32,685 bases of DNA from positions 1 through 32,685 of the IMG/VR virus record IMGVR_UViG_3300043409_000032. One strand, given 5' to 3'. Within the stretch, counting starts at the first letter, position 1; every line of letters starts with the position of its first letter. The notes under the pieces were generated by a model, which was given only the letters and a program-made list of their open reading frames with translations, was not told where the DNA came from and did not search any database. Origin of the DNA: a virus. The position numbers were made by a program, and so were the translations under genes. Of this stretch, positions 29,536 through 32,685 are shown piece after piece.

Positions 29536-29712
29536 ATGAACACACTAACCGATAAAGAACTAATTACCTTGCTTGGTGGGCCAACAGTCCTATCTAAGAA
29601 ACTAGGTTTCTCCTCTGCACAGAGGGTACATAACTGGGTATATAGGGGGATACCCGCATCTGTCAAATTAGCCTTTCCAAAACTTTTCTTAAACAAAAGG
29701 ATTAAGAAATGA
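29536..29712 (+). CDS. Cro/YdaS-like repressor (58 aa)
   Basis: A 58-residue helix-turn-helix protein: MNTLTDKELITLLGGPTVLS, with GPTVLSKKLGFSSAQRVHNW as the DNA-binding core, then YRGIPASVKLAFPKLFL and a basic tail. The LGG-xx-xx-LSKKLGF and R(V)HNWxxRGIP pattern is typical of phage Cro/YdaS-type repressors. It should bind the palindromic site just upstream and control both divergent promoters. There is no Shine-Dalgarno, so translation may start from a leaderless mRNA. The next gene overlaps by ATGA. No CI-like partner is seen on the minus strand. Confidence 0.82.
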   Translation: MNTLTDKELITLLGGPTVLSKKLGFSSAQRVHNWVYRGIPASVKLAFPKLFLNKRIKK

Positions 29713-30023
29713 GTAAATTGTGCGCTGATTGCAATCAAGAAATTACTGGCAGAGAGCAAAGTGCTAAATTCTGTTGGTCATGTTGTGATTTAAGACCTAG
29801 AAAGAATGGACAAGCACAAGCTGCCGCCAAAGTAAACCAAGCAGTAAAAAAAGGTATCTTGCCTCACGTTTCAACTTTAATTTGTGTAGATTGTGGAAAA
29901 ATTGCACAATGTTATGAACACAGAGACTACAACAAACCATTAGAAGTTGAGCCTACTTGCAAGGGTTGCAATATCCGCAGAGGCCCAGCTATTCCATTAA
30001 AGAAAGAAGAAGTTACAGAATGA
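29709..30023 (+). CDS. Double zinc-ribbon protein (104 aa)
   Basis: A 104-residue basic protein with two four-cysteine metal sites: Cys5/Cys8/Cys22/Cys25, and Cys59/Cys62/Cys84/Cys87 with a nearby Cys68 and His71. The linker (NGQAQAAAKVNQAVKKG) is helical. Phage zinc-ribbon proteins of this type often bind DNA or act as transcription or replication accessories. It lies between the repressor and a winged-helix gene, with four-base overlaps on both sides, so it is an early product. I cannot assign a precise role. Confidence 0.78.
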   Translation: MSKLCADCNQEITGREQSAKFCWSCCDLRPRKNGQAQAAAKVNQAVKKGILPHVSTLICVDCGKIAQCYEHRDYNKPLEVEPTCKGCNIRRGPAIPLKKEEVTE

Positions 30024-30394: not shown

Positions 30395-30498
30395 TACAAT
30401 GTTTTGAAACACGGCTAGGTGGGGGGTAGCTACCCCATCGAAAAGAGAACTCCCCTCCTGCCGATTGTTTCTTTCTGGGAGATTTGCGGAGAAGTGCC
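30395..30498 (+). promoter_or_regulatory. Structured leader before the replication gene
   Basis: The 104-base gap contains a perfect 14-bp palindrome (GGGGTAGCTACCCC, 30423-30436). CTCCCC at 30450-30455 can pair with GGGAG (30477-30481), and CTCC at 30455-30458 can pair with the Shine-Dalgarno GGAG (30488-30491) of the next gene. A weak promoter, TTACAA (30372-30377) and TACAAT (30395-30400) 17 bases apart, would start transcription here. No T-tract is present. Confidence 0.45.
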
Positions 30499-31266
30499 AT
30501 GCACTATTACAAATTTAACATTGCGGATTATCGTAAAGATACAGGTCATTTATCAACCATTGAACATGGTATCTACCGCCAGTTGATTGATTGGTATTAC
30601 CTTGATGAACAACCCATTCCAGATGAAACCCAAGTGGTTATTAGGCGGTTACGTTTGGGTTCTGATGAGGTTGTGTTTCTTAAAAATGTGTTGTCAGATT
30701 TCTTTGTTTTAGGCAAAAATGGATATGAACACAAGCGCATTGAAGTAGAGATTCAAGATTATCAAGAGCAAGTAGAGAAAAACAAGAACAATGGGAAGCT
30801 AGGTGGTAGGCCAAAGAAAACCCAAGTGGTTATTTCTGGGTTTCCAGATGAAAGCCAAAATAACCCTAACCATAAACCACTAACCATTAACCATAAACCA
30901 ATTAAAGAGAACAAGAGAGGCTCACGCCTCACTCAAGACTGGTTTCTTACAAAATCAATGGGAGATTGGGCTTTACAGGAAAGACCAGATTTAGATGTAC
31001 GTCAGGTTGCTGAACAGTTCAAAGATTATTGGGTTGCCCAAGCAGGTCAAAAAGGTGTGAAGTTGGATTGGGATGCAACATGGCGTAATTGGGTTAGAAA
31101 TACCAAAGCTGTTAAACCAAATCCATATGATGTTGTAAGGCTCACAGTTCCGATGAAAAATGAGCCTGACCCTACATTGGAAAAGATTAAAGCTGACGAC
31201 AAGAAAGCAGTTCCTCCATCATTAGAAATTTTGGCAAAGATGGCTGAGTTGCGGAGAAAAGCATGA
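30499..31266 (+). CDS. DUF1376 (YdaU-like) replication protein
   Basis: A 255-residue protein; I choose ATG 30499 because GGAG lies seven bases before it and the DUF1376 motif starts there (MHYYKFNIADYRKDTGHLST, then EHGIYRQLIDWYYLDEQPIP). A TTG at 30484 is less likely. Family members occupy the place of lambda O in many prophages and carry a disordered linker after the N-terminal domain. Here that linker (residues 105-140, NPNHKPLTINHKPIKENKR) is encoded by iteron-like DNA. A second domain (DWALQERPDLDVRQVAEQFK, YWVAQAGQKGVKLDW) follows. It probably recruits host replication proteins at an origin. Confidence 0.85.
   Translation: MHYYKFNIADYRKDTGHLSTIEHGIYRQLIDWYYLDEQPIPDETQVVIRRLRLGSDEVVFLKNVLSDFFVLGKNGYEHKRIEVEIQDYQEQVEKNKNNGKLGGRPKKTQVVISGFPDESQNNPNHKPLTINHKPIKENKRGSRLTQDWFLTKSMGDWALQERPDLDVRQVAEQFKDYWVAQAGQKGVKLDWDATWRNWVRNTKAVKPNPYDVVRLTVPMKNEPDPTLEKIKADDKKAVPPSLEILAKMAELRRKA
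30867..30908 (+). repeat. Iteron-like 21-bp repeats inside the replication gene (candidate origin)
   Basis: TAACCATAAACCA occurs at 30867-30879 and again at 30888-30900, a 21-base period; TAACC occurs four times from 30861. The plus strand has no G from about 30857 to 30905 and is AT-rich. In lambda the origin iterons lie inside the O gene. By analogy this is the best origin candidate. Confidence 0.55.
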
Positions 31267-31919
31267 AAGTTCTACCGATTAACAATTTTGAAGTTGAGCC
31301 TTGGTTACTTGAAAAACATTATGCCAAGCGTATGCCACAAATTATGTTTGCGTTTGGTCTTTACAAGGATGATATTCTTGTTGTTGTAGCAACTTATGGA
31401 ATCCCTGCGTCACCATCTCTTTGCATGGGTATTTGTGGAAAAGAATATACAGACAAAGTTTTAGAACTAAACCGAGTTTGTTTATTGGACAACCACAAAA
31501 ACGAAGCATCATTTCTTGTTGCGAATTCAATCAAGTTATTGCCTAAACCTAGCATTGTGGTTTCTTATGCTGATACAAGCAAAGGCCATGTGGGTTATGT
31601 TTATCAAGCGACAAACTTTCTTTACACAGGACTTTCAGCAAACAGAGTTGATTGGACAATTAAGGGACAAGAGCATAAACATTCAAAAACAATTAGTGAT
31701 GGTTTGACGCTAGATGAAATAAAAGAGTTACATGGTGATGATTTTTATTACACAGAGCGTTCAAGAAAACATAGATACATTTTGTTTCATGGCTCTAAGA
31801 CTGACAAAAAAGTTTTGCGTTCTAAGTTGAAATACGAAGTATTGCCATACCCAAAGGGAGATTCTGAAAGATATGACTCTGGAACAACTGTAAAAACCCA
31901 ACAACTTTTATTTGTATGA
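31263..31919 (+). CDS. Mom-like adenine-modification protein
   Basis: A 218-residue protein resembling the Mom family, which converts adenine in phage DNA to N6-(carbamoylmethyl)adenine and blocks restriction. Visible family blocks are EPWLLEKHYAKRMPQIMFAF (12-31), VLELNRVCL (66-74), SIKLLPKPSIVVSYAD (89-104), GYVYQATNFLYTG (111-123), RKHRYILFHGS and LPYPKGDSERYD near the C-terminus. Mu Mom has a GNAT-like fold. The start overlaps the DUF1376 stop and the end overlaps the GNAT gene (ATGA). The match rests on family recollection of these motifs. No Com-like gene is recognised nearby. Confidence 0.85.
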   Translation: MKVLPINNFEVEPWLLEKHYAKRMPQIMFAFGLYKDDILVVVATYGIPASPSLCMGICGKEYTDKVLELNRVCLLDNHKNEASFLVANSIKLLPKPSIVVSYADTSKGHVGYVYQATNFLYTGLSANRVDWTIKGQEHKHSKTISDGLTLDEIKELHGDDFYYTERSRKHRYILFHGSKTDKKVLRSKLKYEVLPYPKGDSERYDSGTTVKTQQLLFV

Positions 31920-32482
31920 GCCACTACGAATTAAAGACTGTTGAAGTTTCTGATGATTTAGGTAATGTAAGATTTGCCAAACTTGAAGATATGCCTTACA
32001 TCATTTCCTTGTCAAAAAAGGAAAGTGTAAGTTTAGGTTTTATTCCAAAAATGGCATACGAAGCTGCAATCACAGGAATTAAAACTGGCGACAGATGGAG
32101 TAATGTTTGCAATGACAAACTATTTGTAATTGAATGCAATGGTGACTTAGTTGGTTTTTGTTTAGCAAGTTTTGGAATACCAAACGCTATCAGTAAAAAA
32201 GGAAAGATTGCTCAGATTTGTTTACAGACAGATGCAAGGAAGTTATTGCGTGGCAGATTGCTCTTGGATACTGTGGTTGATTATGGCAAGACGCAAGGCA
32301 CTATGGCTTTTAGCGCAGGGTGTGCAGATGACCTTGAATCAAACATTTTTTGGAAAGCAATGGGTTGGATTTGTATTGCACAAAGAATGGGCATTTCACA
32401 CAAAAATACTTGGAAACAAACTAGCAAACGTGTAATCAATGTTTACCGCTATGACCCTAGCGACTTTTTAATTTTATTATGA
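31916..32482 (+). CDS. GNAT-family acetyltransferase
   Basis: A 188-residue acyltransferase with the GNAT layout: an N-terminal strand-helix (VRFAKLEDMPYIISLSKKES), a central strand pair (DKLFVIECNGDLVGFCLASF), the acetyl-CoA region IAQICLQTDARKLLRGRLLL (residues 98-117, a variant of R/Q-x-x-G-x-G/A), and a C-terminal block (ESNIFWKAMGWICIAQRMGI). It overlaps the Mom-like gene by four bases and is followed by the junction gene by the same kind of overlap. Coupling suggests that it works with or modifies the Mom product; the substrate is unknown. Confidence 0.82.
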   Translation: MSHYELKTVEVSDDLGNVRFAKLEDMPYIISLSKKESVSLGFIPKMAYEAAITGIKTGDRWSNVCNDKLFVIECNGDLVGFCLASFGIPNAISKKGKIAQICLQTDARKLLRGRLLLDTVVDYGKTQGTMAFSAGCADDLESNIFWKAMGWICIAQRMGISHKNTWKQTSKRVINVYRYDPSDFLILL

Positions 32483-32685
32483 CTAATTTTCAATGGCCTA
32501 TAAATGACTCCAGCAGAATTGGAACACTTCAAGGACTGCGAAGCCAAAGAGTGGATACGCAGATACAACCAAAAGAAATTGACGATTGGCTCAAGCAAAG
32601 CGTTGCTCTGGTGGCAGGGTGTGTGCGTGGACTTGGAACGAATCAGAGGAAAGTCAGATACTTTGCTTTTGAGGGACAGAATGAC
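32479..32685 (+). CDS. 5' part of the junction-spanning small protein (ends at 173 after circle closure)
   Basis: This part starts at ATG 32479, overlapping the GNAT stop as ATGA, and begins MTNFQWPINDSSRIGTLQGL. It runs to the end of the window and continues to TGA 171-173 when the ends are joined at the repeat, giving 73 residues in all. The +1 frame starting at ATG 32504 (MTPAELEHFKDCEAKEWIRR...) is also open over the junction for 71 codons and ends inside the VRR-NUC gene. Neither start has a clear Shine-Dalgarno. Reasons for preferring the first frame are given under its 3' part. Confidence 0.6.
   Translation, partial: MTNFQWPINDSSRIGTLQGLRSQRVDTQIQPKEIDDWLKQSVALVAGCVRGLGTNQRKVRYFAFEGQND
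32528..32685. repeat. Direct terminal repeat, right copy
   Basis: It is identical to 1-158 except for G at 32559 where the left copy has T at 32. See the left copy for interpretation. Because the sequence continues smoothly through the repeat as coding sequence, circular closure looks correct. Confidence 0.93.

Follow-up and report, generated by a model that had tools for sequence, protein, structure and literature searches.

Two overlapping genes stand at the right-hand end of a linear IMG/VR virus record (IMGVR_UViG_3300043409_000032, 32,685 bases, analysed over its full length and hereafter called the window), one encoding a protein of the Mom family of DNA adenine modification enzymes and the other a GNAT-family acyltransferase. 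The question raised by this locus is whether the two form a two-step DNA hypermodification cassette, as the initial annotation had proposed, or are separate genes that share a neighbourhood.

The rightward operon and its regulation

The + strand of the window carries terminase, portal, scaffold and virion genes, and a minus-strand block encodes a Sak-type annealing protein. A rightward operon starts at about 29.5 kb, at a divergent junction, and comprises (in this order) genes for a YdaS/Cro-like, a small Cys-rich, an HTH-like and a DUF1376/primosomal protein, followed by Mom, GNAT and a gene that is cut. The features on which the argument rests are:

29536..29712, + strand: YdaS/Cro-like DNA-binding protein (phrog_8008, E 1.9e-17; YdaS_toxin below cut-off), which probably opens the rightward early operon
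30484..31266, + strand: DUF1376/primosomal replication-type gene (PF07120, E 2.1e-23; PHROG primosomal proteins, E to 2.4e-41)
31263..31919, + strand: Mom-family DNA adenine modification gene, 218 aa, ATG start (PF25680, phrog_1384, PDB 8bv8)
31916..32482, + strand: GNAT-family acyltransferase gene, 188 aa, ATG start, an optional accessory (PF00583; AlphaFold, Foldseek)
32479..32685, + strand: downstream gene, truncated by the contig end, which directly follows Mom in sister phages without the GNAT

The initial annotation had described two coupled, overlapping reading frames beside a replication gene, and all of this was recovered: the frames 31263-31919 and 31916-32482 have in common a 4-base ATGA (31916-31919, Mom stop and GNAT start), and the DUF1376/primosomal gene runs into Mom through another (31263-31266). 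As a third ATGA joins the GNAT stop to the start of the next gene (32479-32482), the overlaps are successive, and translational coupling therefore belongs to the whole stretch of the operon and not to Mom and GNAT alone. We infer that both genes lie in an early operon because the gene order after the divergent junction near 29.5 kb (Cro/YdaS-like, HTH-like, replication gene) points to such a placement.

The reported absence of Com and Dam was upheld by profile searches of the record, in which neither Com (PF10122) nor a Dam-type protein (PF02086) found a match. The Mu mom switch needs Dam methylation of GATC; the 32,685-base contig holds no GATC at all, against about 73-122 expected by different models and a minimum of 53 in Markov simulations (n=60). 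A Mu-type Dam/GATC switch therefore cannot operate inside the window sequence, and Mu-type mom control is excluded within the contig. Window positions 29709-30023 encode a 104-aa protein with several CxxC motifs, which gave no Com match and a weak one to a phage endonuclease family (phrog_2340, E 3e-4).

The tetranucleotide CGCG is likewise missing from the entire contig (0 vs about 28-36 expected), and the absence of both sites suggests long exposure to restriction at them. The fetched stretches of seven close relatives (L002-L004, L006, L019, L082 and L083) are free of GATC whether or not the GNAT is present, and the loci recovered with the HNH gene (L254-L328) contain as a group 110 GATC sites vs 953 expected, with none in 60 of the 75. 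Neither Mom nor the GNAT was accepted as the cause of the GATC avoidance, since the close relatives of the window are without GATC regardless of the GNAT, and other Mom phages show no avoidance.

Mom and its place beside replication genes

The proposed Mom homology was confirmed at the level of both sequence and fold. The product of ORF 31263-31919 matched Pfam PF25680 with E 1.5e-35 (123.1 bits, cut-off 27.1) over profile positions 15-202 of 202, and PHROG 1384 with E 1.2e-53; a profile including Mu Mom had PDB 8bv8 as its top hit (E 3.6e-70), and the only Foldseek hits of the AlphaFold model (pLDDT 80.9) at E <= 0.001 were two chains of the same entry (1.9e-10 and 2.0e-9). PDB 8bv8 is the crystal structure of Mu Mom, and its title names it as an inactive mutant, S124A. 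S83 of the window Mom, the predicted catalytic serine, aligns with S124 of Mu Mom by phmmer as well as in alignments A2 and A4, and is invariant in the latter two (a check limited to S124, the one Mom residue comparable with a known inactive mutant). ORF 31263-31919 thus encodes a true Mom-family enzyme, an ordinary member of a known family, which probably disguises the phage DNA from host restriction enzymes; the adenine modification expected of the family is of the carbamoylmethyl/methylcarbamoyl type. A tblastn search with this Mom matched 280 phage records, every one at <60% identity.

Members of the window's Mom subfamily are usually coupled to a replication gene: a DUF1376-type gene lies <=60 bp from Mom in 36 of the 54 unique Mom contexts for which upstream sequence was available, and touches it in 28. 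Among sequenced phages, Mom stands beside or near a DNA polymerase in Cassita and PMBT2, DnaB/SSB/ParB in Appa, ParB and the sliding clamp in Zartrosa, a helicase and VRR-nuclease in CRP-902, and a DnaD/DNA replication protein in vB_EauM-23, and thus its position in the window is not unusual. Mom coupled to early replication genes occurs widely among uncultivated phages, and one pattern scan yielded 244 relatives. A second acetyltransferase was annotated beside Mom in none of the 11 sequenced-phage neighbourhoods read.

The GNAT family and its association with Mom

That ORF 31916-32482 is of GNAT type, as first annotated, is borne out by PF00583 (Acetyltransf_1; 22.3 bits, just over the cut-off of 20.7), which was also matched by 26 of 29 homologues, and by the GNAT fold of an AlphaFold model (pLDDT 80.4), for which Foldseek returned 589 PDB hits at E <= 0.001; among these, the top ones listed are acetyltransferases, with CBU0801, ArsN, YncA, RimI and SpeG-type enzymes in the lead. 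Kinship with Mom beyond the fold was not detectable by profile (hhalign probability 1.7%). The family members in alignment A1 are 67-97% identical to the window protein, and the 150 GNAT loci reduce to 60 distinct contexts. The family had no match in an isolate phage collection (50,697 phage records) and a single one in 84,980 genomes; a host drawn from bacterial genomes was rejected, this sole match being one MAG contig in a phage-like context. More distant relatives exist, as shown by a predicted structure of uncultured-phage origin with 30% identity. Taken as a whole, the family appears to be phage-borne and undescribed so far, and it is highly conserved across very different phage contexts.

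Mom is found next to the GNAT above background: it lies <=120 bp away in 11 of 49 GNAT contexts vs 1 of 104 control contexts, the latter seeded on three neighbouring gene families (HNH, RusA and a 109-aa gene), and <=400 bp away in 16 of 60 GNAT contexts. By record, Mom exceeded the cut-off in 13 of 43 with the GNAT (a lower bound on presence, the records being partly fragments) vs 3 of 50 controls (Fisher p 0.0024), and in 6 of 30 when only GNAT records >=10 kb were considered (p 0.07), both p-values being indicative only, as some contexts are related and GNAT-bearing loci supplied the control seeds. The adjacency exceeds a chance neighbourhood, though many contexts are related to one another. 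While this part of the co-occurrence survey favours an association, the pair is rarely adjacent in relatives, which goes largely against the initial proposal. The GNAT was present in the fetched flank of 5 of 56 and 2 of 24 unique Mom contexts (two Mom searches; 7 of 80 deduplicated), and 30 of 43 GNAT records show no Mom anywhere; a conserved linkage of the two genes was not found in these contexts and records.

On a tree of the 60 GNATs, adjacency to Mom needs 8 changes, 7 of which are forced by starred branches, and the pairings fall into about six arrangements:

Arrangement 1: window type
Arrangement 2: Mom then GNAT, in a different replication context (L094)
Arrangement 3: Mom, small gene, GNAT (L104, L108)
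Arrangement 4: NinB-like gene, Mom, GNAT (L148)
Arrangement 5: GNAT then Mom, order reversed (L222)
Arrangement 6: Mom, Mom, GNAT (L250)

The tandem Mom genes of the last arrangement (L250:39-2162) overlap, encode 307 and 215 aa, are both above the Pfam cut-off and are directly followed by the GNAT. In L222, a 182-aa gene 5' of the GNAT has an NPPF motif and no Pfam match, and was not counted as a confirmed methyltransferase.

The exchange of the two genes can be followed among the nearest relatives. L002 and L003 possess Mom genes 99 and 98% identical to that of the window and no GNAT, with a clean ATGA junction at which TTTGTATGA is directly succeeded by ACTTTCAATGG; where the GNAT is present, TTTGTATGA is succeeded by the GNAT and then by ...TTATGACTAATTTTCAATGG. 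The Mom of L004 (96% identical) is also without a GNAT. Conversely, L082, L083 and L087 have GNATs 96-99% identical to that of the window beside a Mom only 63-68% identical, and L095/L227 have a full-length Mom with no full-length GNAT frame beside it. We therefore consider that Mom and the GNAT have been exchanged and lost separately, and the occurrence of near-identical Mom genes without the GNAT speaks, together with the counts above, against the proposed cassette.

Readings of the locus and comparison with known systems

We favour, with a probability of roughly two in three, a reading in which an ordinary Mom in an early replication operon is accompanied by a separate accessory GNAT. The locus would belong to a tailed phage and form an early replication operon, in which Mom, being translationally coupled to the replication protein, would mark the adenines of the phage's own DNA while it is copied, and DNA so marked may resist host restriction. 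The GNAT would be an exchangeable gene, cleanly present or absent between Mom and the next gene, which probably acetylates a protein or small molecule and not the Mom-modified base, and which most likely serves counter-defence or host takeover. The best explanation thus has two forms.

In the first, which we hold tentatively, the GNAT would be an independent anti-defence factor that tends to travel with DNA-modification genes and occupies a shared counter-defence slot. Its neighbours include, besides Mom, an N4/N6 methyltransferase (L092) and an ABC-ATPase-GNAT (L113, L229), and in L136 the GNAT, a methyltransferase and Mom are found together; many GNAT contexts, however, have no known modification gene nearby, and the idea that the GNAT is drawn to DNA methyltransferases in general was rejected, as the N4/N6 type is unenriched (6 of 43 GNAT vs 9 of 50 control records). 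The proximity of Mom above background keeps a shared counter-defence role plausible, and a loose link between the two genes is possible, more likely through that role than through two-step base chemistry. Within L136 (3965-7897), the GNAT, an HNH gene, the methyltransferase and a divergent Mom all lie inside 4 kb. The ABC-ATPase-GNAT-like fusion, beside or near the GNAT in L113:2913-4534 and L229:2179-4540, resembles a class predicted to modify DNA bases (PMC7824862).

In the second form, which is possible but rather doubtful, the GNAT would acetylate a host protein, by analogy with phage Rac, which is reported to act on RNA polymerase (described in PMC7824862). Consistent with this form are the generic protein-GNAT fold, whose best hits include RimI and other N-acetyltransferases, and the location of the gene inside the predicted early region.

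A two-step cassette, in which Mom would modify adenine and the GNAT further acylate the product or prepare the acyl donor (yielding a new hypermodification), is improbable, for the above-background adjacency, the recurrence in several arrangements (Mom diverged to 51-56%, GNAT to 64-65% identity) and the coupling of translation by the 4-base overlap are set against near-identical Moms without the GNAT, GNATs mostly without Mom, independent exchange with many neighbourhood changes, the L095/L227 loci and a GNAT fold resembling protein/small-molecule acetyltransferases and not Mom. It is similarly unlikely that the GNAT assists Mom-type modification as an accessory enzyme in a minority of phages, where it would alter the Mom adduct or the acyl donor; the resulting larger adenine modification would then defeat enzymes that can cut Mom-modified DNA, with gains and losses of the GNAT following changes in the host nucleases. 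The distribution of the genes does not predict a dedicated two-step DNA hypermodification. On the favoured reading of an ordinary Mom with a separate accessory GNAT, Mom and the GNAT do not look like parts of a single obligatory machine, and the tempting pair is an optional neighbourhood.

Like the enzymes of the GNAT superfamily (RimI, ArsN/PAT, SpeG and CBU0801), the window GNAT has the common fold and the Acetyltransf_1 profile, but it is only 10-18% identical to them and, unlike them, belongs to a tight phage family; this family conserves NTWxQTSxR as a C-terminal motif and is without a match in the collection that holds the sequenced phages with Mom-like genes. The window Mom is akin to Mu Mom (PDB 8bv8, PF25680) in family over nearly the full protein, in fold, in the serine (S124/S83) and in other invariant residues, at an identity of about 31%. 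Whereas Mu mom sits after an invertase gene and its system has Com, the window Mom is coupled to a replication gene, in a contig with no Com gene and no GATC. Closer counterparts are the Mom-like proteins of Listeria LP-114, Acinetobacter JeffCo, Roseobacter CRP-902, Exiguobacterium vB_EauM-23 and others, which are 40-44% identical to that of the window; several of the Mom-like genes of sequenced phages lie, as the window Mom does, beside or near replication genes.
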